Shown: piece after piece, positions 609-63,687 of the stretch | Numbering within the stretch: the first letter of the stretch is position 1 | Layout of the letters: each line of letters opens with the position of its first letter | From: Sphagnum magellanicum | Taxonomy: Eukaryota > Streptophyta > Sphagnopsida > Sphagnales > Sphagnaceae | Length of the DNA: 64,000 nucleotides | Direction of reading: 5' to 3' | Assembly (NCBI GenBank): GCA_021904315.1 | Contig: CM038914.1 | Location: 18,463,065 to 18,527,064 of the forward strand | The notes under the pieces: generated by a model | What the model saw: the letters and a program-made list of their open reading frames with translations, nothing else | Database searches by the model: none | What the model was told of the DNA's origin: nothing | Position numbers and translations under genes: made by a program

Positions 609-759
609 ATGGGCAGTCGTCGTGGCTTCAAGGACGAGTGCAACACTCCTCAATTGCTCTTGGTCTGTAGACTTCAGCAGCTTCGTCTTGTTACTTATGG
701 TTGCAGCTTCACAAGCGGCGGCGTTATCAAGTATGCTTTGCTGTGTTGGACCTTCTTGA
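460..759 (+). other. Overlapping upstream ORF, 99 codons, copy A
   Basis: An ATG 149 bases before the proposed kinase start opens a 99-codon frame that overlaps the first 150 bases of the kinase coding sequence in another frame. It is intact at the same length in copy B (36462-36761). Its C-terminal part is hydrophobic ([17 protein letters not shown]), partly because it overlaps the kinase signal peptide region. It could be an upstream ORF that lowers kinase translation, or a chance frame. I infer no protein function. Confidence 0.25.
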
Positions 760-3700
760 GCTTGTTCTGCTCATGTCTTACTTCCGCGCTCGCCCCTGCC
801 CCTGCCCCTGCCCCCGCAATACCCCCCTTACCGGTTCCACTAGCCGATCTTCCTGGGAGCTGGAATGTCACGCTTATTGACAGATCTTGGTACTACTATG
901 AGACAAAAGAGGGTATGGGTTTTTTTCATACACTATTTGCTGATGTCGGATCGAAATGTACATGATCAAATATTAAATCAACAATAATGTTAATTCTTAC
1001 CTACTACGCTCAGCAGCTTAGTGTTTTTTCTAGTTTTGGAATGTTGTCAAACTGGAGAGCATTAACTACAAGGTTCTACCAGATTTGGCAACAGTGGAAA
1101 TTTTGCTACTAGAATCTTTAAGAAATCCTTCTATCTTGTGGCTGCCTTGGAGCATATGATAAAAAAAATGATGATTTAAAATATTGAAATCTGACAAATT
1201 TTTGCCATAAAAAAAAACATCCTTGGAATTGCTGGATTTGGTGGTCGGAATTTGATTTGTACAGACAGGGTTATAGCACATTAGTTGTGCTTTGTTCTTT
1301 GTACAATGATTTTCTTTACATATTAGAAAAATAGGCCCAGTTAAGTCTTGGACGTATAATGAATCCTGTGAAGTGGTCAGGAGGTAAGATTTCTTACAAA
1401 ATGGTTTACAAAGCCTGTAATAGGCACTGGTGACATACTTGTAACTAGATTGACAAAAGAAGTTTTTGCTGTGACTAGCAGGAAGTTTTGGACTCTGCCC
1501 CATAGGAAACACATTGGTATCATATTCAGGCCTAAAATTTAGGATTGAACTTGACCCGATGTCTGAGTGACATCTGGAGTACTACCTATGTGTGTATATG
1601 ATGGATGGGGCATGTTCCATTAAAGTGCGTGCATCTATACAAGAAGTTCTAGACCCAGCAAGGAAAGTTTTTAGTTTGAAGTTTGAACCACCATAGAGGG
1701 TAGAGTCATTCTGTGATTAGCTGCTTGTTTTCTCAGAAGCTTATACACAACTTTCGTGTTTTGGTGCAGTGGATGCTATGCAAAGTCTATTGGCACAGTG
1801 GAGCGACACTGGAACTAATTTATTTTCTTACAATTTGCCGGGTTGGACCAGCAAGCCCGACGTCAATTATCCTTGCTTTGAGGATAGTGATTGGCAAGGG
1901 GTTCTTTGCTATGCCTTTGCACAGAGATATAATGGCACTATATTTTTCATTGTAACAGTAGGCTATATGTAAGGACCCTACTTCAAACTTGCCCTCTAAC
2001 AAGCATTAAATGTCTGGGCTGACAGATCATGTCACTTTCTTGACCAGAATGTATCTGTTAAACATGAATTTCCTTATAATTTTGAATCTGCCACCCCAGA
2101 GTTTAATGTCATGGAATGGTCTCGCCCATTATGGTGGGTGTGTCACCTGGCTCACTCTATGGGGCTCACCTGACACCTTACCCAACATAATGAGCAGGGG
2201 CTTGACCATTCCATAGTATGTTGCCACCGCATGAATGAATTCTGAGTATTTTCCAAGCTTGCTGGTTGCTCAAACCACCTACCACCAAGTTTTCTGTTAT
2301 TGGAGCTATTTTCCACCAATTCCCCTTGAATGCCCAGTCTCTTGCTCCAATAATGTCCGATATAGTGATTTATTTTCCTGTGCCTGCTGTTATGTGAAGA
2401 TCAATGTTAAAAAAACAGAACAAAAATCTCTAGCACTTACTACTAATTAGCAACCTTCCATGATTATGGTGCAGAGAATTATCAAGTAGAGGACTTCAAG
2501 GTGGCCTGCCCCCTGCCATTGGGAATCTTTCCAATCTAATAGGCTTGTACGTTTTTCCTTACTTGTTGGATCTTTATGTGATCCTAATCTTAGGGATTAT
2601 GGACCATTGATACTGAAGCATTCAAAGAAATTTCCTAGTGTATTTGGAAGTTGCCTTATATCTAAGAAATATCCTCCCTGAAAAGGAAAGGGAATTCTTG
2701 AGCCTACTTATAAATAGGTGTAAGATCCCACCCACTCTTAAGGAGTAGGAGTAAGAACCCTCCCCCTCCTACATCTCATGATCTACATATGTTTAGGTTA
2801 ATCATAACAATTGCCTTGTGCTTATGATGGGTGGGAGACATTCCCAACATGTGGGGTTGGATTCTTGTATCACCTCATCCTAGCACCTTACTTTGGCTCT
2901 ACACAAATTTGCCAAGTAGTATTCATGACACAGTCATGAGTTACATTGTGTCCAATGGTTGATAATACTTAGATTTGAAACTTTTGGAAATTTGTGGCTA
3001 GTCGTTGCAAGCTCCTCACTAGGTAGTAACAATTTTTAGACCCTGGGAGAGAGCCCATTGATGTTTTTTAAAATGGCATTTTCCTGAAATCACAAGGTGA
3101 TTGAATAAATTTTCACATTGTTGTGTTGTTTGCAGAATCCTGGTAGGGAATCCGAACCTTGGAGGTCCCATTCCAGAGGAGTTGGGAAGTAATGTACGAC
3201 TGTCACTCTTGTAAGAACAATTGTACCCATTGAAAATTGCAAAATTCCCAAGCAAGTTATGTTGACAACTATAACTCACATTCATAGAAGTAACCATGAG
3301 TTTTTCTCCTGCATGCAGTGAGAAAAATCTCCTTAATCTAAAGACTCACCACCAGTATTGCAATACGATGGCAGGGATCTACATGATAACGCTTTTAATG
3401 GGAGCATTCCTATCACATTGGGATATTTGCAAAAGTTGGGACAACTGTAAGTATGATTTCAAGAAAACACCCAATACATCTGACTTTGATTGGTAATCTT
3501 CCTCAGTCTAAATGAACATGGTTACAAGCAATGATATATGTTCCATGGTAGATTAATGCATTTTAAAAAAGGAGGAAATCAAATACAATTTGCAAGTATA
3601 CATTATGGTCTATACTTCACTTGTCTAAACAATGGAAACATATTCCTTGTACTACAAAGATCATAATCCTTCCATTCTTTTCCCCTTTGACTCCAGGGCC

Positions 3701-6700
3701 TAGTTGAAGCAGCAAATTGATTTCAAATTCAAAATCTTGCATCCTTCACTAAAAATAATGTTATTAATTGTTTTATAAGGAGCTAATGATGCTCAATAGA
3801 AGTGCCCATTTTCTTATACTTCCATTTTTTTTTGCCTTCCTCCCCTGTTTTGAGAGGTCAATTGACAATAATGAAGGCCAATTATTCACAATTTGTGTAG
3901 GATATGAGGTGACAAATCCACAATAGGTTGGTATTTTTAGTTAATGAGCTTCACATGGTTTGTTGTCCTAACAATTTCTTTTTATTTTATCAGAGATTTG
4001 AGTGGCAATGAGTTGATTGGATCAATCCCTCCACAACTGGGAAATATAAGCAGGTTACAAACATTGGAGTTGCACAACAATCGTCTCACTGGAACAATTC
4101 CAATTTCATCAACTAATAGTTACAATCTTGGTCTTGATAATTTGACAAGTCTAACGACATTGTGAGTGGCAATGTATAATCTCATCTTTAGGGCCTAATG
4201 ATTTTAAAATTTTCATGTGCATCCAAATGTACTTAAAAATCTCATGTCTCAATCAAAAACATCATGAACATTTGAATAAATGAACTTTCCCAATTTCAAA
4301 CTATATTTGTCATACGAAAATGTCTCACAAGAAAAGGAATGGTCAAGTTAGGTTAGGGGATAAATGGGTATTGTAGGAATTGAAACAAACTTTGGTCTCA
4401 TGTACATGTTATGGTGGAACGGTCCTTGTTGATGACCAATTTTTTTCAATCATATGAATTCACCATCTTATTAAGTTAGTGAATCTCATAGCTTGCCTTC
4501 TTGCGATGCAGGACATTCCAAGAAAATTTGTTAAGTGGAGGACTACCCAATCTTCAAAGTGCATACAATCTTTTAGTATCGTGAGTGCATTGTTAACCAA
4601 AGTCAACATGGCAGTTGGTTTACTTGGCTTATATTTGGAGTTTGCACTTTACTCTAATCGAATGATCTTTGGTCATGCAACATTGGTTGTGTTAATTTTA
4701 GATGACACTACTTTTTACATTGACCATTGTGAACATTGAAAACTTCAACATTCCAAAATATGATGTTTGCTATATATTTTGTAACCAACTAAATGGAAGG
4801 ATACTTAAATTATCAAACTTATAACATGTGTGGGGAAATTGTTCAGGAATTTTAGTTTCAACAACTTGAGCGGGAATGTGTCGATCGATTCAATTTTCAA
4901 TTCAACATCTCCTCTTGGTATTTTGGATTTGTCATTCAATTCTTTCACCGGTGTTCTCCCCAATGTGAACATCTACTCAAATTCATTGCAACATTTGTGA
5001 GCTTTTTTTCTCTTACCTCTTTGAACTTCAACAAACTTATGGCACTTTAACACTAAACCTAGTAAAGTTATTAAAATGGGTATAAATGATGGAAAATTTT
5101 GAACTTTAAGAAGACTTCAAAAACAATGTTGTGTTAGACATTAAAATGTCAAAAATCAATCCCAAATTTCTAAAATTATGTGTTAGTTATATGAAAAAGG
5201 TATCAAAATGGTGTCCTAAAATACTCAAATAAACTTCACATGTTTATTTTTAATGACCTATGATACTTCCACTATAACTTAATTTGATGTTTTAAAAAGT
5301 TATATTTGCAGATTCAAGACTTGTCATTCTACATTATGGTTATAATTGTTAAATTACAATAAAAATTTCACTTTTCTATGGAAAAAGTTTGAATGGTTTA
5401 CAATAGTTACAAAAGTCCTTACTCTAAGCCCCCAAGTAGTTTGGGAAAGCTCAATGCATGTGGGATACGTAGGTTTGTTGAATAGTCCTTGCTTTTGACC
5501 ATAAGAATTACAAGATTCAATTAATTTAGTACAAGATTAAAACAAAAGTTAATGAACACATGTTTAATGTATGTAATTTATTATCTTATAGGTTCTGTCA
5601 ATTATGACATGGGGTGAGACTCAAAATTTGTCTTTTCATTAGGGTTTAACTCTCACTAATCTACTTCAAGGTTTTTCAAAGCAAACCATTGAATGATCGA
5701 TTATTTGCAACATGTAGGGATTTGAGCAATAACCTTTTTGATCCAAGTACATTTTCCCAATCTTGGTTTTCAAACTTCACACATCTAAAAACGTTGTGAG
5801 TATCCACATCAAGTTTTGATACCAATTTCAAATTGAATCTTTTTTGTTTTTTTATTGTAATAATTATTATTTTTGGTCATATTCCTTTGTAGAAAGTGGA
5901 GGATGTCAAATAAAAGTATTAATTAAACATGTGGTTCAGTGCTCCTAGGAAAGTATATATGCATTTTATGTATGGTCAATATCTCATTCAAAATTAAAAG
6001 TTAAAAGTTTACAATATTTAAAAATATAATAGTATGTAGTATTTGTTTTCAGCATAAGCAAGTACAAGAGTTTCCTTATACCATTATGGATAGTTGGACA
6101 AATGTGAAAACTTCAAAATGTGTATATCACTTAAAAGATAACTACACCATAATGCTTCTAAGTACCAACTATTATATAGATCATCATGAAAAAAAAAGTG
6201 AGGAAAAATCTACAAGATCTTCATGTTAATTATGACTTGGCATGCAGAGGGTTGGCAAACATATCTCCACAGTTGTTGGCAAATGTGTTACACAATGGTT
6301 TTATTGAACTTGGTTTTCTTCTTGAAGGGCTTCCGTCATTACAAACCTTGTGAGCATTATCATAGTCCCTTTTAACATGTTGCAATATGGTTAATGAAAG
6401 TTGATACCATGTCAATGGGCATCTGAACCATAAAATCAACCAATTGTGTTGACATGTACAATGGAAATTACAAATTTTTATTGATATCAATTATAGTCAA
6501 TGTATTTTTAATTCAAAAAAATTCATTCCATTCAAGTTTACCATGTTTATGACCAAAAGCATATTAAGAATATATTTGTATAATATGTGTATGAAACCTT
6601 TTTTGAAATTGTTCATCATTTCCAATGTTATATGTAACAATACATGTAAAAAATATATTTAACTAATTTAGTTCAATACGTGAATTTGAATTGCATTTGC

Positions 6701-9700
6701 AGAAGGCTTGACCAAAACAACATCACTGGATCCCTTGATTTGAGGAACATCAATATAAATGGACCATTGAATTTAATAAACCTAACAGGGAATAATATGG
6801 GACCAGATTTCAAAAGTTTTTTATATTCCAATATCTCAAATTTGGTCTCTAGTGGACTTTCTATCATGTGAGTTCCATTTTGCAATATGCATCTTACTTT
6901 TCATTTCATTAAAAGATATCCAACTACTATATATGTTCACTACTTAACTGCATACATTATTAATGACATACATTATTTCAAACTTTTATAATATCACTAT
7001 GGAATAAATGTGTTACCAAATTTTGTCACAACTGAACAAATGGAACATATTGACAGGCTTGGAAACAACCCTTGTTGTGACAACATTTGGAACGATATGT
7101 CCGGGTTGACTTATGTTGAAATCTACTACTTTTGCCATAGTACCCCACCACAACCAAAAAGCAAGTTTTTTTACTTGATCTACCCATATAATTTCAATAT
7201 TTTGAAAAACAATTTGTGTGTTGTTCCTTGTTGTTTAAATAGACTTAGGGTTACTTATGGATCAAATTTTCTACTTGATTACGAAATAAAAATATGGCAC
7301 CTTATCAATTAATTAGTATAGGTCTTATACTACTATATTGTGATTTGACTAGTTATAATTCATCATGAATTAGTCATTAACACATGGTTTACGAATTTGT
7401 CCTTCAGGCAAGAACTTAAATACAATTGCGATAAAAGTTATAATGCCAATGACAGTGGTAATTTTTTTGATAGCAATGGTTGTATTTTTCTTATATTGGT
7501 CAGCACGAAAGGAAAAATATTCTTTGCTACTTCAAATCCAAGAAGGTACATGAAATGATTTAGATTCTTTCAATTGATATTGTTGAATTTTTTTTCATAT
7601 TCATGGGCTTACAATATGAAAAAATAAATTTAATCAAGTTTATCAATAGACTAAATGTTTCTTTTTGCATGTTCAATTATTACATTATGGGCTAAAAATA
7701 TGCAACTAATTTAAGGGTTTTTCTATTTCTATTTTATCTAATAGGTTTATGAAAAATATTTAAAATAATCATGAAATTTGTATTAAAGTTGCATGTATTG
7801 GATTCAGAATTTGCGAAACAAGATGTGCAACCCACATTGTATGCATATCATGATATCAAAATAGCTACTCGAGACTTCCACCCTGACATGAAAATAGGTC
7901 AAGGATCCTTTGGAGTTGTTTATAAGGTATGTGTACATTATTCTTTCATTGTTGTTTTTGGCTATATATTGATGCACCAATCACCTTGAATTATGAATGG
8001 TTGTTAAAACTAATCATATTTTTTGACCTTGCAGGGAATATTACAAGGTGGGGGTGAAATTGCTGTGAAACGTCTATTAACAAATTCACAACAAAGCATT
8101 GATGAATTCCTTAATGAAGTTGTGCTCATTACAAATGTGAAACACAAGAATCTTGTTAAACTCAAGGGTTGTTGTCTCATGGGTGGAGGAGGTGCAAACA
8201 AAAGATTCCTTGTGTATGAATTTGTAGACAACAACAATTTGGCAGAAACAATTTTCGGTAAATTCTTTGACCTATAACATAATTAAAATGGAGTAAGAAC
8301 ATAAATGTCAAATCATGTTGAAAATGGATAGGACTTGCAAAACTTTATTTAGATCTTTAAAGGCTCTTTTAATTTCACATATATATATAATTTACCCAAG
8401 ATGATTTGTCACTATCTAAAATACGTCTACGCAAATTAACATATTATTTACAGGTTATAATTCAATAATTATTCAATTCATATCATAATTTATTTATTTT
8501 TGAAGCTTTAGATTGGGTGATATAATTCTTGAAATTTTTTCCTTCCAAAATAGATAATAAAGGAGGACATAATGTGGATTGGCCAATGCGAAAAAACATA
8601 TGTTTGGGAGTTGCTCGGGGCCTCACCTATCTTCATGAAGATGTTCAACCCTGCATTATACATCGAGATATCAAAGCAGCCAATATTTTGTTGGACAAAC
8701 ATTTTAATGCCAAGATCGCTGATTTTGGGTTGGCTCGACTTTTTCCAGACACGGCCACCCATATTAGTACTTTTCACATTGCTGGGACTATGTAAGTAGT
8801 ATTTACACATGTCATACATTTCATATGGAGTGTACCATCTAGTTTTGTTTATATTGACCTCAAATTTTGAACACAACATGGACAAGTTAATATATGACTA
8901 AACTTTAAGTATTTAACATAGATTCAATATATGTCCATAAATTGTTACATAATTTGTAGATCCCCATTTGTCAAAGATAATACTTATGCAAATACATCTA
9001 ATATCAAAATAATATACTATTTTTCTTTCATGGTTAGGTAAGCCAACTTCTAATTTAAAATAAATGCATAGACCTTTTCATGAAATGTTTTTGAATGTAA
9101 ACCAGATTCTAAACACAAACTCATTCATGAACTTGGAGTTTTTCAATTGCATGCAGGGGTTATGTGGCACCAGAGTATGCTTCTCGTGGCCAACTAAGTG
9201 AGAAGGTTGATGTGTTTAGCTTTGGGGTTCTAGTACTAGAGATTGTGAGTGGAAGGAAGAATATCGAGCCCAACTTAAATGAAGATCAAGCATATCTTCT
9301 TGAATGGGTAAGCAATTTCATAACATTATTCTTTTAACAAATGGAATCATTGTGGCAAATGTAAAAGATTCAACAATATTTAAGATTGTGGAAACATATG
9401 TCAAATTTATAAACTACATCAAGATGAATGAATAACGTGGAATTCAAAATGGAAGTTACATAAGAATGTAGTAATATGGTGAATATATAATATTGAAGTC
9501 TGACTACATTAACTAATCCTTAAGATCTTGAATGATCACTTGATTGGAACTTTCATCTTACATGAATTGGACAACATTCTTCTCTAGTAATGAACATTGC
9601 ATGTGTTTCCAATTCTATAATTTAAAGTGTCAATAATGATCCATAGATTACCATTCCTCAAATATATATTATATGTTGGTATTTTCATCATGAATCAGGT

Positions 9701-10031
9701 TTGGAAATTATTTGAAGAGGCCAAGCTTTTGGAGATGGTGGACCCAAAAGTGAACACCCTCAACCATGAAAAGGACATAATACATGTCATAAACATTGGG
9801 CTTTTATGTGTGCAATCCACAGCCTCAAAAAGACCATCCATGGCTAGAGTAGTGGCAATGTTACAAGGTGATGAAATGGAGATGGAAGTTATAAAAGAAA
9901 CTCCACTAAGAACCATTGACTATGAATCTTTATTCGCAACAATAAATTCTAGTTCTATGAATGAAAGCATGTTAAAAGTATTCCAGAAGAGTAGCCTCAA
10001 AGGTAAAACAATAGAATTGTGTAACAAGTAG
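609..10031 (+). CDS. LRR receptor-like serine/threonine kinase, copy A
   Basis: A plasma-membrane receptor kinase is predicted. Exons inferred by phase: 609-912, 1770-1968, 2475-2546, 3136-3210, 3375-3446, 3994-4161, 4512-4580, 4847-4996, 5718-5795, 6248-6349, 6703-6867, 7057-7160, 7408-7545, 7808-7926, 8035-8257, 8554-8791, 9157-9307, 9699-10031; total 2760 nt, 919 residues, no internal stop. Order: long n-region and hydrophobic signal peptide ending near SALA/PAP (about residue 60), proline-rich linker, N-terminal cap with two Cys (WQGVLC), LRRs about 168-485 on exons of 69-168 nt, a NPCC...YFC cysteine motif, one transmembrane segment (about 528-549), kinase about 590-865. The kinase looks active: GQGSFG loop (596-601), Lys617, HRD 716-718, DFG 736-738, APE 763-765. 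The layout resembles plant LRR-VIII kinases (family knowledge, not searched). The ligand is unknown. The transmembrane exon needs a GC-AG intron. First-exon start choice is the weakest part. Confidence 0.85.
7161..7407 (+). other. Probable GC-AG intron before the transmembrane exon, copy A
   Basis: The exon with the NPCC cysteine motif must join the transmembrane exon in phase 1. The only donor that does this is GCAAGT at 7161, with acceptor TTCAG at 7403-7407. Using the GT four bases further on shifts the frame and removes the transmembrane helix. GC-AG introns with a GCAAGT donor are a known minor class of U2 introns. The same donor is kept in copy B. Confidence 0.65.
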
Positions 10032-12222: not shown

Positions 12223-13429
12223 GAACTGTGCATAATTTGTTTTTTTGTTTTGGGTTGAACCTTTTGATTTGCTCATCCCATGTGCACAAATTTTTTAGTG
12301 TGAAATTGGATGACAATACCCCCTTGTTTATATAATGTTCAAAATAAAAATGAAAAACAAATAATATGGGATAAGCTTTGAAGTTGCAATTCCAAAACTT
12401 TTTTCATGCCTTATTTTTTTTAGTTTCTAGATTTCTAGACAATTCAAATACTAAATAATTAGATAATCATTTAATTAATAATGACTAGATTTAAATATAT
12501 TTAAATTATAAATTATAAATTACAAATATTCAGTATTCATTATCAATTACCTATCAATTATTTATGAACAATAATTTCTTAATATTTAATAAACTAGCTA
12601 TCTAGTTATTCACAAGTTATTGATACATGATTCATAAATAATTAAATAACTAAAATATTTAAAAATATTTAATTATTTTTTAGAATCTGATCAAACTAAT
12701 TATAAAATAATTAATGTAAAACTAATTTAATGACTATAATTTAAAACTTAACTATTAAAATATTTATGTTAAAATTATAAGTAATGAATTTATAATTACT
12801 ATTAAAAAGTAAATTCTTAGACATATATTTTAAACATTATTATTCAACTAATTACATTACTTATTGTAAGCTTCGTCAAAATCACTTTATGGATTTTATT
12901 ATAACTACATTTATTGTTGTAAAAATTATTATAGGTCAAGTAGTTTTTTTCTCTTGCTAATTATTAACTATAAATACAATAATTTAAAAACATAACATTA
13001 ATTTTCATAATTGTTGTAAAATTACTATAAATATTTATCATAGATGATTAATCAAAAAATTCATAATAATATATAATAATTTGTGAATCTAAAATCAGTA
13101 AAATAATTATTTTAACTACACTATATTTTTTGAAATTTTTGTTCAGGTTTGAAGTTAGAAATTAAAAAGTGTGAATAATAATGATCAATTAGAAAATAAT
13201 TATGCACATACTAATTAATTCTTATCTGAAATAATTGCGATGATTTTAAATTAATGTCACACATTAATTACATTAATTAATTTCTTCTAATATAGGAATA
13301 TAAATTTAAAAATATAAAAATCTATGTTATAACAATAATTATTAGTGTAACTTAGATTTAATAAACATAATTATTTACAATTATTTATAACAATGATTTA
13401 TTTTGGATAACATTAGTAGGAAAAACCCT
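12223..13429. other. AT-rich intergenic DNA
   Basis: Very AT-rich, rich in ATTAATT and AATAATT words, no open frame or recognisable element. It is present in both copies, with small indels. Confidence 0.7.
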
Positions 13430-13955
13430 TCAAACTCAATCAATAATTTTTTGAATTAAAATATAAATTTAAGATTCCGCAATAGTAGTTTAGAATTCAA
13501 GTATCAATTTTTAGATCAAATAATTTTGTGAAGTTAAATAAAAAAATTTAGAATTGAAATGTCAATTTTCATATTCAAATATTCAAAATTAAAATGTCCA
13601 TTTTAAGATTCAGTTAATAAATTTCTGAATTGAAATATTAATTTTGAGAGTCCAAAATAATAATTTGGAATTCAAATTTCAACTTTCAAGTCAAATAATT
13701 TTTTAAAATTTAAATTTAGAACTTTAGAATTCAAATATCAAATTTCAAGTTGAAATAAAAATATTTAAAACCAAAATGTTGATGTTTAAACTCAATAATG
13801 TTTTTTGAATTGAAATACTAATTTTTAGATTCGAAAATAATAATTTAGAATTTAAATATAAATTTTTAGATCAAAATTTTTTTTTGAATTTAAATAAAAT
13901 TTCCAGAATTGAAATGTCAATTTTCAAATTCAAATAACAATATTCAACATAGTGA
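13430..13955. repeat. Degenerate AT-rich tandem repeat, copy A
   Basis: About eight irregular units of roughly 60-70 bp share a core like GAATTGAAATGTCAATTTT followed by AGATTCAAATAATAA. Units are strongly diverged from one another but align one-to-one with copy B, so the array is older than the duplication. Confidence 0.6.
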
Positions 13956-36761: not shown

Positions 36762-39700
36762 GCTTGTTCTGCTCATGTCTTACTTTCGCGCTCGCCCCTG
36801 CCCCTGCCCCTGCACCCTCAATACCCCCCTTACCGGTTCCACTAGCCGATCTTCCTGGGAGCTGGAATGCCACGCTTGTTGGCAGATCTTGGTACTACTA
36901 TGAGACAAAAGAGGGTATGGGTTTTTTTCATACACAATTTGCTGATGTCGAATAGAGATGTACATGATCAGTTATTAAATCAACAATAATGTTAATTCTT
37001 ACCTACTACGCTCAGTAGCTCAGTGTTTTTTCTGGTTTTGGGATGTTGTCAAACTGGAGAGCATTAACTACAAGGTTTAACCAGATTTGGCAACAGTGCA
37101 AATTTGCTACTCAAATCTTTGAGAAATCCTTCTATCTTGTGGCTGCCTTGGAGCCTATGGTAAGAATATGATGATTTTAAAAATTGAAATCTGACAAATT
37201 TTTGCCATCAAAAAAAACATCCTTGGAATTGCTCGATTTGGTGGTCTGAATTTGTTTTGTACAGACAGGGTTATAGCACATTAGTTGTGCTTTGTTCTTT
37301 GTACAATGATTTTCTTTTCAATTGTTTCACAAAATATATTAGGACAATAGGCCCAGTTAAGTCTTGGACGTATAAGTGGTCAGGAGGTAAGATTTCTTAC
37401 AAAATGGTTTACAAAGCCTGTAATAGGCACTGGTGGCATACTTGTAACTAGATTGACAAAAGAAGCTTTTGCTGTGACTAGTAGGAAGTTTTGGGCTCTC
37501 CCCCATAGGAAACACATTGGTATCATATTCAGGCGTCAAATTTAGGATTGAACTTGACCCAACATCTGAGTGACATCTGGAGTACTACCTATGTGTGTAT
37601 ATGATGGATGGGGCATGTTCCATAGAAGTGTATGCATCAGCTATACAAGAAGTTCTAGATCCAGCAAGGAAAGTTTTTAGTTTGAAGTTTGAACAACCAT
37701 AGAGGGTAGAGTCATTCCGTGATTAGCTGCTTCTTTTCTCACAAGCTTATACACAACTTTTGTGTTTTGGTGCAGTGGATGCTATGCAAAGTCTATTGGC
37801 ACAGTGGAGCAACACTGCAACTAATTCATTTTCTTACAATTTGCCTGGTTGGACGAGCCAGCCCGACCTCAATTATCCTTGCTTGGAGCAGGCTGATTGG
37901 CAAGGGGTTGCTTGCCAATTCTTTGAAGGCACATATAAGGGCACTACATATTTCATTGTAACAGTAGGCTATATGTAAGGACCCTACTTCAAACCTGCCC
38001 TCTATCAAGCATTAAATATCTCATTAAGTTCTGGGTTGACAGAGCATGTCAATTTCTTGACCACAGTATATGACAGAATCTTCCAGTGACCAGAGTGTAT
38101 CTGTTGAACATAAATTTCCTTATAATTTTTGAATCTGCCACCCCAGAGCTTAATGTCATGGAATGGTCTCGCCCATTATGGTGGGTGTGTCACCTGGCTC
38201 ACTCTATGGGGCTCACCTGACACTTTACCCAACATAATGAGCAAGGGCTTGACCATTCCATAGTATGTTGCCACCACATGAATGAATTCTGAGTATTTTC
38301 CAAGCTTGCTGGTTGCTCAAACTACCTACCATCAAGTTTTCTGTAGTATTATTGGAGCTATTTTCCACCAATTCCCCGTGAATGCCCAGTCTCTTGCTCC
38401 AATAATGTCCAATACAGTGATTTATTTTCCTGTACTTGCTGGTATGTGCAGATCAATGTTAAAAAAAAAGAACAAAAATCTCTAGCACTACTACTAATTA
38501 GCAACCTTCCATGATTATCTCGCAGAGAATTATCAAGTAGAGGACTTCAAGGTGGCCTGCCCCCTGCCATTGGGAATCTTTCCAATCTAAATGCCTTGTA
38601 AGTTTTTCCTTACTTGTTGGATCCGTATGTGATCCTAATCTTAGGGATTAATAATGGACCATTGATACTGAAGCATTCAAAGAAATTTCCTAGTGTATTT
38701 GCAAGTTGCCTTATATCTATGAATATCCTCCTTGAAAAGGAGAGGGAATTCTTGAGCCTACTTATAAATAGGTGTAAATCCCACCCACTCTTAAGGAGTA
38801 GGAGTAAGAACCCTCCCCCTCCTACATCTCATGATCTACATATGTTTAGGTTAATGATAACAATTGCCTTGTGCTTATGATGGGTGGGGAACATTCCCAA
38901 AACGTGGGGTTGGATACTAGTATCACCTCGTCCTGCACCTTACTTTGGCTCTACACAAATTTGCCAATTAGTATTCAGGACACAGTCATTAGTTACATTG
39001 TGTCCAATGGTTGATAATACTTAGATTTGACATTTTTGGAAATTTGTGGCTGGTCATTGCAAGCCACTCACTAGGTTGTAACAATTTTTAGACCTTGGGA
39101 GAGAGCCCATTGATGTTTTTTAAAGTGGCATTTTCCTGAAATCACAAGGTGGTTGAATAAATTTGCACATTGTTGTGTTGTTTGCAGAATCCTGGTAGGG
39201 AATCCGAACCTTGGAGGTCCCATTCCAGAGGAGTTGGGAAATAGTGCACAACTGGGACTCTTGTAAGAACCATTGTACCCATGGAAAATTGCAAAATTCC
39301 CAAGCAAATTATGTTTACAACTACAACTCATATTCATAGAGGTAACCATGAGTTTTTCTTCTGCATGCAGTGAGAGAAATCTCCTTAATCTAAATACTCA
39401 CCACCAGTGTTGCAATAAGATGGCAGGGATCTACATGATAACGCTTTTAATGGGAGCATTCCTATCACATTGGGATATTTGCAAGAGTTGGGACAATTGT
39501 AAGTATGATTTCAAGAAAACATCCAATACATTTGACTTTGATTGGTAATCTTCCTGAGTCTAAATGAACATGGTTACAAGCAATGATATATGTTCCATGG
39601 TAGATTAAAGTGTTTCAAAAAAAGAGGAAATCAAATACAATTTGCCAAGTATATGTTATGGTCTAAACTTCACTTGTCTAAACAATGGAGACATATTCCT

Positions 39701-42700
39701 TGTACTGCAAAGATCATAATCCTTCCATTTTTTTCCCGTTGACTCCAGAGCCTAGTTGAAGCAGCAAATTGATTTCAAATTCAAAATCTTGCATCCTTCA
39801 CTAAAAATAATGTGATTATTTTTTTGTAAGGAGCTAATGATGTTCAATAGAAGTGCCCATTTTCTTAGACTTCCAATTTTTTTTGCCTTCCTCCCCTTTT
39901 TTGACAGGTCGTTTGATGATAATGAAGGCCAATTATATACTATTCGTGTAGGATATGAGCTGAAACCCACAATAGGTTGGTATTTTTACTTAATGAGCTT
40001 CACATGGTTTGTTGTCCTAACAATTTCTTTTTATTTTACCAGAGATTTGAGTGGCAATGAGTTGACTGGATCAATCCCTCCACAACTGGGAAATATAAGC
40101 GGGTTACAAACATTGGAGTTGCACAACAATCGTCTCACTGGAACAATTCCAATTTCATCAACTAATAGTTACAATCTTGGTCTTGATAATTTGACAAGTC
40201 TGCTGACATTGTGAGTGGCAATGTATAATCTTATCTTTAGGGCCTAATGATTTTAAGATTTTCATGTGCATCCAAATGTACCTAAGAATCTTATGTCTCA
40301 ATCAAAAGCATCATGAACATTTGAATTAATGAACTTTCCCAATTTCAAACTATATTTGTCATACGAAAATGTCTCACAAGAAAAGGAATGGTCAAGTTAG
40401 GTTAGGGGATAAATGGGTATTGTAGGAATTGAAACAAACTTTGGTTTCATGTACATGTCATGGTGGAAGGGTCCTTGTTGATGCCCAATTTTTTTCAATC
40501 ATATAAATTCGCCATCTTATTAAGTTAGTGAATCTCATAGCTTGCCTTGTGATGTAGGACATTGCAAGAAAATTTGTTAAGTGGAGGACTACCCAATCTT
40601 CAAAGTGCATACAATCTTTTAGTATCGTGAGTGCATTGTTAACCAAAGTCAACATGGCATTTGGTTTACTTGGCTTATATTTGGAGTTTGCACTTTACTC
40701 TAATTGAATGATCTTTGGTCATGCAACATTGGTTGTGTTAATTTTAGATGACACTACTTTTTACATTGACCATTGTGAACATTGAAAACTTCAACATTCC
40801 AAAATATGATGTTTGCTATATATTTTGTAACCAACTAAATGGAAGGATACTTAAATTATCAAACTTATAACATGTGTGGGGAAATTGTTCAGGAATTTTA
40901 GTTTCAACAACTTGAGCGGGAATGTGTCGATCGATTCAATTTTCAATTCAACATCTCCTCTTGGTATTTTGGATTTGTCATTCAATTCTTTCACCGGTTT
41001 TCTCCCCAATGTGAACATCTACTCAAATTCATTGCAACATTTGTGAGCTTCATTTCTCTTACCTCTTTGAACTTCAACAAACTTATGGCTCTTTAACACT
41101 AAACCTAGTAAAGTTATTAAAATGGGTATAAATGATGGAAAATTTTGAACCTTAAGAAGACTTCAAAAGCAATGTTGTGTTAGACATTAAAATGTTAAAA
41201 ATCAATCCCAAATTTCTAAAATTATGTGTTAGTTATATGAAAAAGGCATCAAAATGGTGTCCTAAAAGACTCAAATGAACTTCACATGTTTATTTTTAAT
41301 GACCTAAGATACTTCCACTATAACGTAATTTGATGTTTTAAAAAGTTATATTTGCATATTCAAGACTTGTCATTCTACATTATGGTTATAATTGTTAAAT
41401 TACAATAAAAATTTCACTTTTCTATGGAAAAAGTTTGAATGGTTTACAATAGTTACAAAAGTCCTTACTCTAAGCCCCCAAGTAGTTTGGGAAAGCTCAA
41501 TGCATGTGGGATATGTAGGTTTGTTGAATAGTCCTTGCTTTTGACCACAAGAACTACAAGATTCAATTAATTTAGTACAAGATTAAAACAAAAGTTAATG
41601 AACACATGTTTAATGTATGTAATTTATTATCTTATAGGTTCTTTCAATTATGACATGGGGTGAGACTCAAAATTTGTCTTTTCATTAGGGTTTAACTCTC
41701 ACTAATCTACTTCAAGGTTTCTCAAAGCAAACCATTGAATGATCGACTATTTGCAACATGTAGGGATTTGAGCAATAACCTTTTTGATCCAAGTACATTT
41801 TCCCAATCTTGGTTTTCAAACTTCACACATCTAAAAACGTTGTGAGTATCCACATCAAGTTTTGATACCAATTTCAAATTGAATCTTTTTTGTTTTTTTA
41901 TTGTAATAATTTATTTTTTCGGTCATATTCCTTTGTAGAAAGTGGAGGATGTCAAATAAAAGTATTAATTAAACATGTGGTTCAGTGCTCCTAGGAAAGT
42001 ATATATGCATTTTATGTATGGTCAATATCTCATTCAAAATTAAAAGTTAAAAGTTTACTATATTTAAAAATATAATAGTATGTAGTATTTGTTTTCAGCA
42101 TAAGCAAGTACAAGAGTTTCCTTATACCATTATGGATAGTTGGACAAATGTGAAAACTTCAAAATGTGTATATCACTTAAAAGATAACTACACCATAATG
42201 CTTCTAAGTACCAACTATTATATAGATCATCATGAAAAAAAAGTGAGGAAAAATATACAAAATCTTCATGTTAATTATGACTTGGCATGCAGAGGGTTGG
42301 CAAACATATCTCCACAGTTGTTAGCAAATGTATTACACAATGGTTTTATTGAACTCGGTTTTCTTCTTGAAGGGCTCCCGTCATTACAAACCTTGTGAGC
42401 ATTATCATAGTCCCTTTTAACATGTTGCAATATGGTTAATGAAAGTTGATACCATGTCAATGGGCATCTGAACCATAAAATCAACCAATTGTGTTGACAT
42501 GTACAATGGAAATTACAAATTTTTATTGATATCAATTATAGTCAATGTATTTTTAATTCAAAAAAATTCGTTCCATTCAAGTTTACCATGTTTATGACCA
42601 AAAGCATATTAAGAATATATTTGTATAATATGTGTATGAAACCTTTTTTGAAATTGTTCATCATTTCCAATGTTATATGTAACAATACATGTAAAAAATA

Positions 42701-48275: not shown

Positions 48276-49459
48276 AGAAATGTGCATAATTTGTCTTTTT
48301 GTTTTGGGTTGAACCTTTTGATTTGCTCATCCCATGTGCATAAATTTTTGTGTGTGAAATTGGATGACAATACCCCCTTGTTTATATAGTGTTCAAAATA
48401 GGAATGAAAAACAAATAATATGGGATAAGCTTTGAAGTTGTAATTCCAAAACTTTTTTCATGCCTTACTTTTTTGAGTTTTTCGATTTCTAAACAATTCA
48501 AATACTAAATAATTAGATAATCATTTAATTAATAATGACTAAATTTACATATATTTAAATTATAAATTATACATTACAAATATTCAGTATTCATTATCAA
48601 TTATTTATCAATTATTTATGAGCAATAACTTTTTAATATTTAATAAACTAGCTATCTAGTTACTCACAAGTTATTAATACGTAATTCATAAATAATCAAA
48701 TAATTAAAATATTTAAAAATATTTTATTATTTTTTAGAATTTGATCAAACTATATATAATATAATTAATGTAAAATTAATTTAATGACTATAATTTAATA
48801 TTTAACTATTAAAATATTTATGTTAAAATTATAAGTAATGAATTAACAATTATTATTAGAAAGTAAATTCTTACACAGATATTTTAAACATTATTATTCA
48901 ACTAATTACATTACTTATTGTATAACTACATTTATTGTTGTAAAAATTATTATCAGTCCAGTAGTTTTTTTCTCTTGCTAATTATTAACTATAAATACGA
49001 TAATTTAAAAACATAACATTAATTTTCATAATTACTGTAAAATTACTATACATATTTATCATAGATGATTAATCAAAAAATTAATAATAATATATAATAA
49101 TTCGTGAACCTAAAATCAGTAAAATAATTATTTTAACTACACTATTTTTTTGAAAATTTTAATTCAGGTTTGAAGTTAGAAATTATAGAGTGTGAATAAT
49201 AATGATCAATTAGAAAATAATTATGCACATACTAATTAATTCTTATTTGAAGTAATTGCGATGATTTTAAAGTAATGTCACACATTAATTACATTAATTA
49301 ATTTCTTCTAATATAAGAATATAAATTAAATAATATACAAATCTATGTTATAACAATAATTATTTAGTGTAACTTAGATTTAATAAAAATAATAATTTAT
49401 AGTAATTTATAAAAAATGATTTATTTTGGATAACATTAGTAGGAAAAACCCTTAAAACT
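48276..49459. other. AT-rich intergenic DNA, copy B
   Basis: Counterpart of 12223-13429; no gene. A stretch of about 30 bases present in copy A near 12870 is missing here near 48920. Confidence 0.65.
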
Positions 49460-49980
49460 CAATCAATAATTTTTTGAATTAAAATATAAATTTAAGATTC
49501 CGCAATAGTAGTTCAAAATTCAAGTATCAATTTTTAGATCAAATAATTTTGTGAAGTTAAATAAAAAGATTTAGAATTGAAATGTCAATTTTCAGATTCA
49601 AATAATAATATTCAAAATTAAAATGTCCATTTTAAGATTCAGTTAATAATTTTCTGAATTGAAATATTAATTTCGAGAATCCAAAATAATAATTTGGAAT
49701 TCAAATTTCAACTTTCAAGTCAAATAATTTCTTAAAATTTAAATTTAGAACTTCAGAATTCAAATATCAAATTTCAAGTTGAAATAAAAATATTTAAAAT
49801 CAAAATGTTGATGTTTAAACTCAATAAAAAATTTTGAATTGAAATATTAATTTTTAGATTCAAAAATAATAATATAAAATTTAAATATAAAGTTTTAGAT
49901 CAAACAATTTTTTTGAATTTAAATAACAATTTCCAAAATTGAAATGTCAATTTTCAAATTGAAATAACAGTATTCAACAT
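49460..49980. repeat. Degenerate AT-rich tandem repeat, copy B
   Basis: Counterpart of 13430-13955, with the same unit order. Confidence 0.6.
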
Positions 49981-60759: not shown

Positions 60760-63114
60760 TGTACAAACTTCCTTTTCTCAAATCAGTTCCAAATTTTGAC
60801 ACTGATGCCATCTTTCTCGATTCCTGATGTGTCTGTGAGCAACATCATTCTACACACCCATGTAATGTTTTACTTCAGATCACTAAATCCTTAACAGTCC
60901 TACTATTAGGGAATGTAGTTTGTTTGTTTTGCTTTGTTCATTTTGTCAGATTGAGATTTCCCAAACCACAGGGTCCCTGGCACTGTTCTTGGTACCATTG
61001 GAAAGCCACCACTTGGTGAGGCCCTGCATGCACTGAGGTGATTTTGAAATGTTTAAACTTGCAATGCAGGAGTTATTGAATTTTGAGTATTTTTATTGCT
61101 GAAAATTCAATGAAAGTCAAAATAAAAAAATTTAGGGGAATTCCAACTGGTGGATTCCAACCCTGCATTGGATTTCAACTGTTGAGGAGGACAGTTGCAC
61201 CCAGGTGGTTTCAGACCTCTGGTGCAAGTGTTGTTGAATTCTGAGTAGTTTTTGTAATTGGAAAATCACTGAAAATCAAAAATCAACTTTTGATCTGAAA
61301 TTGTATTTCACACAACAGAACAGTCAAAAACATATATATACTTTATAAAATAATTACATTACAATATCTGAGCATCAGCTCAGGCCAACTACTATGATGA
61401 TTTCAAGTAAGTCTCCATACTTGAAGCACCATAAAATTGTGATTTTGTGAAATACAATAGCTCTCTTGAATTCTTGCATGCTTTTGAAGCAAATTTGATT
61501 TGCAATCAATGCATTGCATTATCTCAATTTGGAAAGTGATAATGGGCATTTGGTCCCCAAGTATATGACACAACCCAAGCATTAAAACCTCTTTAAAAAC
61601 CTCTCAAGCCTTGGTGTGCCTGTGTAGGAGCTTACACCCCTTTTATCCTATTTTCAGATGATGGGTAAATTGTGTTGACCTTTGAAGGTGTGTGCTCGGT
61701 TTTTGTGCTTTACAAAAACAAAATTCCCTTTGCATTGAAGAGTTTCTTTTCTAACTGTTCATATTTACTAGCCTATGCCATTGGCCTGAGTGTGAAGGCA
61801 TTCTTTATTTTTCACATTTTCAGAATTAAAACTTTGTAAATTTGGCAATTGAGGGGTCAACTGATTTTTCCTCCCAAACCCAATTTCTGCAATTTGTTGA
61901 ATTTCCAGCAACAAAGTCCACTTAAAAATCAATATCTTTGACACCTTAGCTCTGAAAATTGCGAAATAAACTCTATTAAATCTGACTGGCTGAGGGCTTT
62001 CCATCAACATCACCAAAAACACCCCCAAATTCCAATGCAGTTTTCAGTTTCAATTTTACTTCGTTTTCATTGAGAAAACGGTTCGATAATCAATAGCTTC
62101 CACACTGTAGCTCCAAACAGTCCCAAACCAAGTCAATGCACCCCTACTCATCAAGAGCTTTCTGAAGGGATACCAAGAGGGTGGCATCGAGCAACGTGGG
62201 TTGGGAGATCCCAATGTGACAAACAAAACAAAACAAAACAAAACAAACTACCTTGCTTCATAGATAGATTAGCACACATTCACCAAACTGTAGCATGATT
62301 CCTAAACTTTTATACTGTTCTCTGTAGCATGGAACCAAAATTGGCTAAGTCCTCTTGTGGATGATTGCCAAGCCACCTATCTCACAAATTTGAAGCAAGA
62401 AAACACTACTCACATACCAAAACTTATTGAATGAGTTAACTAGTTTCCTTTGCAATAATAAAATAGGAAATGAGTCAATTTTCTTGCATAAATCAACATG
62501 AACAAATGTCAAAACGAACAATCCTATCACCATTTGTCCATCATGCTGCATTAGTGACTCTTGGTTCATGCTGGGCCTGGCCTCCCACCTCTCCACCCCT
62601 ATCACCCTTTCTCACACCTGCATGGTAACAATTACCAGACAGGAATGTGTTGTTTAGAAAGGGTTCAAGAGGGAGGAATTACTAAGGATCAACTATTGCT
62701 CTGGGCGATACATAAGCACTTATGTCTCAATCTTGAAGATGGATGGCTGAAAGAAAAGAGATTTCACACACTACAGCATTATGTGTATCAGGATGTGTGA
62801 ACCTGTATTTCAGAATTGTCAGCAATTCCAAAAAATAATCAATTAGTGCCTAACCAGCCTAGGTACTAGGGTCGTTGCCAACATACAATGGCAACAAGGA
62901 GAAATTTGATGGCCTCATAAAATACTGTGGTCCACAATGTGAAAGCCTCACAAAACACACTGAATACGATACATTGTGAAACTAATCTGTGACTTTTAAT
63001 TGATCAATATAATTTGAGTTCGCCATTTTTCATTTACCCCGTGATTGCACATTCATTGCGCACCACATCACACTGAAAATACCCTGTTATCATACTCCCT
63101 CCTGCACACGGAGA
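60760..63114. other. 3' flank and intergenic DNA; no gene recognised
   Basis: This holds the 3' UTR of the SPEN-family gene at its start, with no clear poly(A) signal. A degenerate two-unit repeat lies at about 61035-61295 (GTTATTGAATTTTGAGTA against GTTGTTGAATTCTGAGTA, spacing about 160), and an (AAAAC)n microsatellite at 62220-62247. A 79-codon frame at 62561-62800 has no known domain. Confidence 0.5.
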
Positions 63115-63687
63115 CCCAAGTGGATAACTTATCCAGTCCCTTCATAAGTACATATTTAGTTGCATAATTAGTTGCTTGTCTTGTGGATTAGTGGGCCCCA
63201 GGTAGATAACATACAAGTTCCCTTCATAAGTACATATTTAGTTGTACAATTAGTTGCTTGACTAGTGGATTATTCGGCCCCAAGTGGATAACTTACAAGT
63301 TCCTTTCATAAGTACATATGTAAGTTGCACAACTAGTTGCTTGACTCGTGGATTAGTGGGCCCCAAGTGGATAACTTACAAGTTCCCTTCATACGTACAT
63401 ATTTAGTTGCTCAATTAGTTGCTTGACTCATGGATTAGTGGACCCAAGTGGATAACTTACAAGTTCCCTTCATAAGTACATATTTAGTTATACAATTAGT
63501 TGCTTGACTCCTCGATTAGTGGGCCCCAAGTGGTTAACTTACAAGTTCCCTTCATAAGAACATATTTAGTTGCACAATTAGTTGCTTGACTCATGGATTA
63601 GTGGGTCCCAATTGGATAACTTACAAGTTCCCTTTCGTAAGTGTATATTTCGTCACATAATTAGTTGCTTGACTTGTGGATTAGGGA
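63115..63687. repeat. 82-bp tandem repeat, seven copies
   Basis: Units start at 63115, 63197, 63279, 63362, 63443, 63525 and 63607. Consensus: CCCAAGTGGATAACTTACA, then AGTTCCCTTCATAAGTACAT, ATTTAGTTGCACAATTAGTT, GCTTGACTCGTGGATTAGTG, GG. Units differ by a few bases each; spacing is 81-83. Confidence 0.95.

Follow-up and report, generated by a model that had tools for sequence, protein, structure and literature searches.

Two neighbouring copies of a receptor kinase gene in Sphagnum magellanicum differ most strongly in one short exon. Does this reflect diversifying selection on the encoded protein surface, or was a foreign version of the exon copied into one of the genes? The genes lie in a stretch of 64,000 nucleotides (C8:18463065-18527064 of the 438,994,042-base genome), here called the window. 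By self-comparison of the window, copies A and B sit in duplicate units of 16 kb, approximately 36 kb apart, with an identity of 93% in their first 2 kb and of 95% in the 14 kb that follow. In each unit lies a receptor kinase gene of 18 exons, many of which encode parts of the LRRs. An initial annotation had reported that exon 2 of the two copies differs at 26 of 199 bases, with 17 replaced and two silent codons, and our recount gave the same numbers (NG86: Nd 23.5, Sd 2.5, dN 0.163, dS 0.064, ratio 2.57). As also described there, the length of exon 2 (199 bases in A and B) and both cysteines are kept, and exon 10 shows four changes, all of them silent (Sd 4, Nd 0). The splice sites of exon 2 are in place in both copies. 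Our preferred reading, to which we assign a probability of roughly 0.7, is diversifying selection on a recognition surface whose versions have been moved around by gene conversion.

The gene family and its receptor class

A DNA search of the genome with exon 2 identified seven LRR receptor kinase copies, five of them close (A–E) and two used as outgroups (F and G) (Table 1). The same seven genes were the best matches in a search with kinase exon 16 (86–100% identity), the remaining genes reaching 82% at most; copy counts from both searches are lower bounds. The exon layout is common to the seven copies, and all paralogues compared come from one genome. Exon 1 of F and G aligns poorly, exon 3 of both was misaligned and hence positioned by pattern, and codon counts exclude codons opposite gaps in A.

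Table 1. Location of the genes, exons and tracts analysed. Intervals are window positions; other locations are given by chromosome.
Feature	Location	Strand	Basis
Receptor kinase gene copy A, 919 aa, 18 exons	609..10031	+	Hand-placed exons with splice sites verified in the alignment of the seven copies; Pfam kinase and LRR
Exon 2 of A, N-terminal LRR cap (LRRNT-like), residues 102-167	1770..1968	+	
Hypervariable second half of exon 2 of A, residues 135-167, YPC..W.GV.C loop to first LRR strand	1868..1968	+	Counts, site models
Exons 3-5 of A (LRRs 1-3); site-model signal; matches the region converted in B	2475..3446	+	
Exon 10 of A, outside the converted tract	6248..6349	+	
Kinase exons 14-18 of A, used as control	7808..10031	+	Pfam; site model
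Gene-conversion tract in B, exons 2-5 (starting in intron 1 or at the end of exon 1, ending in intron 5)	36904..39966	+	Informative sites, permutation test, trees, coordinate mapping
Exon 2 of copy B	37776..37974	+	
Copy C	C8:13.83 Mb		
Copy D	C8:18.56 Mb	opposite	
Copy E	C8:13.69 Mb		
Outgroup copy F	C9:1.19 Mb		
Outgroup copy G	C17:2.63 Mb		

The introns of copy A are GT-AG throughout except for intron 12, a conserved GC-AG intron that begins with GC (window 7161-7162) in six of the seven paralogues and with GT in E. The last exon of B, at an estimated 46.1 kb, has one base fewer than that of A near its end, resulting in altered C-terminal residues; in C and D an in-frame stop falls earlier in the last exon. 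F and G, located on different chromosomes, show a dS of only approximately 0.05 outside exon 2, which suggests a recent inter-chromosomal duplication behind this pair. Self-comparison offsets also revealed a tandem array with a period of approximately 82 bases (window 63113-63687), and a repeat of approximately 175 bases is present in about three copies in each duplicate unit (window 13429-13947 and 49452-49977).

In copy A, Pfam detected a kinase domain (PF07714, 152.2 bits, cut-off 23.1) and LRRs (LRR_1, 28.4 bits, cut-off 20.6), and the closest solved kinase structures are those of BAK1 and other plant receptor kinases. A hydrophobic stretch in exon 13, judged by eye, represents a putative transmembrane segment. 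By these predicted features copy A belongs to the plant LRR receptor kinases, which combine extracellular LRRs, a transmembrane segment and an RLK/Pelle-type kinase. The family LRRNT_2 (PF08263) falls on exon 2 (residues 100-148) with 10.9 bits, which is under its cut-off of 20.7. The exon 2 framework DAMQSLL..W...LPGW...YPCF..W.GV.C...V.V is conserved, and the W.GV.C pattern as well as the cysteines are retained in all seven copies. A PDB search with the cap and the first LRR returned no convincing relative of the cap (five rows, best E 0.0054), and an AlphaFold2 model of exon 2 of A alone was uninformative (mean pLDDT 46.1).

The receptors may be HPCA1-like (LRR subfamily VIII-1). A single collinear match to an HPCA1 chain was obtained (query 20-228 of 247, 39 bits, E 6.5e-9); it covers the C-terminal ectodomain, and many other LRR receptor kinases rank above it, with more or shorter matched stretches. 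The GDPC motif reported for the first cysteine pair of most subfamily VIII-1 members (PMC5380761) is absent, all seven copies having YPC instead. Subfamily VIII-2 is described as carrying a malectin domain between the LRRs and the membrane (PMC5380761), and none of the 12 Pfam matches of copy A is to a malectin family.

Gene conversion between paralogues

Among copies A–E, the grouping of informative sites changes along the gene. Between A positions ~900 and 3917, A is grouped with D and B is grouped with C, while to the right of A 3990, A, B and D are mostly together against C and E. The maximum segment shared by B and C (A 902-3828) comprises 354 polymorphic sites with 66 mismatches and has a score of 126, compared with a permutation mean of 13.6 (z 39); none of 2000 permutations scored as high. 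In FastTree analyses, the trees of intron 1, of exon 2 and of the part running from intron 2 through intron 5 each joined B to C and A to D, but those of both flanks joined A to B. With the second half of exon 2 only, B was still placed with C, and D joined F and G (support 0.78) and not A. Intron differences inside the tract and to its right were 5.8% and 2.1% for A-B, 2.5% and 8.1% for B-C, and 3.5% and 5.1% for A-D. Derived states were shared inside the tract by A and D at 25 sites, by B and C at seven and by A and B at one, and to its right by A and B at 31, by A, B and D at 56 and by B and C at one.

A topology switch at sharp edges together with high local identity to a non-sister copy identifies this tract as a product of conversion between paralogues, and the switch rules out that the A-B divergence arose in place since the duplication. 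The edges in B map to approximately 36.75–36.94 kb on the left and 39.88–40.07 kb on the right, giving a size of about 3 kb; C, which itself or through a close relative would be the donor, lies 4.7 Mb from B. Most likely, the transfer went from C or its close relative to B, because donation from B to C would have left the A-B difference in the tract near 2%. A recent overwriting of A by D was likewise rejected, as the A-D difference inside the tract is not near zero. The B-C difference in the tract and the A-B difference to its right are not significantly different (p=0.43), so that the conversion and the A/B duplication appear to be of similar age. Since further segments were found for A-D (A 187-934) and B-D (A 119-589), both at p=0.0005, and weaker ones near A 554-646 for A-E, B-E and D-E (p 0.0065–0.037), more than one exchange may have taken place among the copies.

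Exon 2 of B is 97% identical to that of C and 87% identical to that of A, since the tract spanning exons 2-5 came from a C-like donor. Judged from these alignments, the A-B contrast in exon 2 is mostly a contrast between A and C and not a local divergence of the tandem pair. The third paralogue that the initial annotation had offered as an alternative source, and had named as a finding that would speak against selection, has thus been found, although it does not give a complete account. The nearby introns are indeed less diverged than exon 2, as had been stated (5.8%, 139/2385, versus 13%; Fisher p=0.0004), but they are themselves raised in comparison with the introns to the right of the tract (80/3753).

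Replacement changes in exon 2

Conversion might also be the whole explanation, exon 2 of B having simply been overwritten by a diverged paralogue with no special selection. The near identity of B and C in exon 2, the drop in their intron difference within the 3 kb tract and the extreme permutation score all agree with this. However, copying of a whole tract should move introns and exon alike. Exon 2 and the introns of the tract have a common history, which makes these introns a fair yardstick, and exon 2 differs two to four times more than they do in nine of the ten A–E pairs (Fisher p 0.003 to 1e-10), the exception being the recently homogenised pair B-C (p=0.64). In those nine pairs, dN divided by intron K ranged from 2.35 to 4.19 with intervals above 1. 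The excess over the local intron rate persists without B, namely in A-C, A-D and C-D and in A, C and D each paired with E, and site models restricted to A, C and D still reject the nearly neutral model (M2a versus M1a, 2dl 12.1, p=0.0023). We therefore regard conversion as the sole cause as unlikely.

For A–E on the tract tree, M2a was strongly favoured over M1a (2dl 30.2, p=2.7e-7), with 17.5% of the exon 2 codons in a class with dN/dS of approximately 14.5. The result was similar when the outgroups were included (A-G; 2dl 31.6, p=1.4e-7), when E was omitted (A-D; 2dl 12.4, p=0.0021) and when the flank tree was used (2dl 35.5). M8 was preferred to M8a (A–E, p=1.9e-8), and the largest 2dl in 85 completed M1a simulations of the A–E data was 9.5. 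A site class with dN/dS above 1 is thus preferred irrespective of tree and taxa. These models were run with a custom script, not PAML, and both multi-base changes and recombination can affect their outcome: between two and 11 replaced codons per pair hold more than one base change, which inflates the site models, and recombination inside exon 2 can mimic selection.

Counts in single pairs were less decisive. Replaced versus silent codons reached significance in none of the ten pairs (p 0.06–0.45), and bootstraps of dN minus dS reached 5% in only two (A-B and B-C). For A-B alone, 17 replaced and two silent codons, taken as one event per codon, give a binomial p of 0.18 at a neutral share of 0.78. 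Consequently, the strength of the A-B case rests on the intron yardstick and on the family, not on the codon counts of a single pair. Diversifying selection, the explanation favoured in the initial annotation, survives in the pairs without B and in the site models, although the A-B difference itself was largely copied in. A dN/dS at or below 1 for exon 2 with an outgroup had been named there as evidence against selection; pairwise values against F are indeed 0.40–0.50 in all five pairs, at an exon 2 dS of 0.59–0.78, so that this distant comparison speaks against selection in the way foreseen there.

Within exon 2, the signal is located in the second half. In A–E, M0 omega was 2.08 for the whole exon (versus 1, p=0.046) and 3.29 for the second half (p=0.0098), where A and B differ by Nd 18.5 and Sd 0.5; the first 33 codons gave no signal (M2a versus M1a, p=0.93). 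Residues of the selected class include 140, 141, 147, 149-151, 153, 154 and 159, and uncorrected posteriors exceeded 0.8 in A–E at 140, 141, 147, 150, 151, 153, 154 and 159. They lie in or after the YPC..W.GV.C segment, ahead of the first LRR strand. By eye, an N-glycosylation sequon in the variable stretch reads NGT in A, D, F and G and NST in E, and is absent from B and C, which have KGT.

Contrary to what had been claimed, the replacement excess is not confined to the cap, since A and B also differ in exons 3-5 by Nd 9.5 and Sd 1.5, and LRRs 1-3 show a site-model signal (p=2.4e-6) at an overall omega of 1.39, which is not different from 1 (p=0.42). Elsewhere, the site models gave p=0.062 for exon 1, p=0.0065 for exons 6-11 and p=0.067 for exons 12-13, and no signal was detected in the kinase exons 14-18 (p=0.38). 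Variable residues in LRRs 1-6 were not significantly enriched on the concave face (8/30 versus 22/123, p=0.31). Exons 12-13 (window 7057-7545), which encode the juxtamembrane ectodomain and the transmembrane segment, are also variable, with an A-D dN/dS of 2.55.

Could the cap merely be under relaxed constraint, in the absence of positive selection? In lineage-specific expanded LRR-RLKs, a global relaxation of selective constraint has been reported (PMC5296948), and for the remainder of the gene dN/dS between A and B is already 0.79. Relaxation cannot raise dN above the intron rate, as is seen in nine of the ten pairs, and both framework residues and cysteines have been retained. These observations rule out relaxed constraint in its pure form, and as an account of exon 2 we consider it highly improbable.

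Distant relatives and known receptor systems

A protein search with exon 2 yielded 35 matches, comprising the seven copies A–G, 13 distant loci on C9 and C16, and 15 weaker matches; the 13 distant loci were taken into the recurrence analysis and the weaker ones left out. A strict LRR pattern was found in none of the 13, while a looser pattern revealed LRR-like exons downstream in all but L041 (12/13). In a joint tblastn of three longer stretches, kinase matches arrived in sets of three. Seven C9 loci with an alignable framework were used for site models, and three C9b and three C16 loci for counts.

In the seven C9 exons, M0 omega was 9.2 (versus 1, p=2e-5) and M2a was supported with p=3.8e-9. 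Pairs differ by 0–2 silent versus 1–25 replacement changes, and the aligned flanks differ by 25–41% in 12 of the 21 pairs, part of which may be misalignment. So few silent changes beside many replacements and diverged flanks suggest that exon 2 of the C9 set was both homogenised by conversion and diversified by selection. A short exchange is visible in L038 (C9:20.035 Mb), whose backbone is L037-like (98/110 sites upstream, 310/324 downstream). Its exon 2 contains a run of 16 sites of the L040/L045 type at 1576-1636. The nearest flanking sites, at 1555 and 1645, are L037-like, corresponding to a conversion of approximately 60–90 bp. The run spans the loop that precedes the first cysteine and some of the inter-cysteine stretch. 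The C9b and C16 sets, with three copies each, were weaker (pN/pS 0.8–1.7), which argues against a uniform pattern across relatives.

Such short exchanges raise the question whether the loops are old variants that were kept and shuffled by very short conversions, so that their divergence would reflect age and not repeated selected changes. The mosaic exon of L038 is of this kind, A and D are separated when only the second half of exon 2 is used for the tree, and NG86 dS of exon 2 exceeds the intron divergence in the seven pairs with D or E (0.08–0.21 versus 0.04–0.07). At four-fold sites in conserved codons, however, only 0–3 of 16–28 differ per pair (highest 3/20, in B-D and C-D), and the C9 exons show hardly any silent changes beside the replacements, the reverse of what age predicts. 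Old loops are therefore a rather doubtful explanation.

Diversifying selection combined with conversion could operate as follows. Exon 2 would form the cap at the N-terminus of the ectodomain of a plant LRR receptor kinase (LRR-RK). The framework of this cap is conserved, and selection would act family-wide on a short stretch that surrounds the second cap cysteine and continues to the first LRR strand. New loop versions would originate by point and clustered changes, and gene conversion would shift them among paralogues, B having received exons 2-5 in this way. The scheme takes up the excess of replacements, its location, the conversion with its most likely direction and the recurrence in a second gene set, all found in the comparisons above. 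From receptor biology, the loop would be expected to contact a variable partner, such as a ligand, a co-receptor, or a molecule of microbial or self origin, and A and B would differ in recognition with the same kinase output. A fast-changing cap loop is what is expected of a surface recognising something variable, and the comparisons point to an exact, swappable stretch of 20–30 residues as the probable seat of recognition specificity. Selection tests on receptor paralogues need prior mapping of conversion: had C and D been missing from the comparison, A and B would have passed for a tandem pair that diverged recently.

Only tentatively do we extend this to a recognition repertoire with interchangeable cap loops, in which a short exon with a fixed scaffold would carry variable loops that selection diversifies and that conversions as short as approximately 60–90 bp transfer between clustered genes, kinase output remaining constant. 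If true, a moss would have a cell-surface counterpart of hypervariable immune receptors. Among the literature titles listed in our searches, none describes this receptor family in Sphagnum. Clusters of plant NLR and LRR defence genes evolve by conversion and diversifying selection. The evolutionary mode is the same here, but in a cell-surface kinase and with variation centred on one cap exon.

Positively selected ectodomains have been reported for lineage-specific expanded LRR-RLKs in land-plant and angiosperm surveys (PMC5296948, PMC4049390, PMC5380761). Those families resemble ours in their recent paralogues, in selected sites in the ectodomain and in the use of M1a/M2a-type tests; no kinase signal was detected here. 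In the surveys, the selected sites of recent paralogues are mainly in the LRRs, whereas here the signal is strongest in the cap exon before the LRRs. Conversion tracts were mapped here; in the main texts of these surveys, the term 'gene conversion' appears once in PMC4049390 and not in PMC5296948 or PMC5380761. The Arabidopsis OAK cluster also consists of tandem receptor kinases with divergence concentrated in one part of the ectodomain, and its authors propose positive selection or gene conversion (PMC3136440). In OAK the variable part is a malectin-like domain and alleles were studied, while in Sphagnum it is an LRR cap that varies among paralogues and for which a likely direction of conversion can be given.
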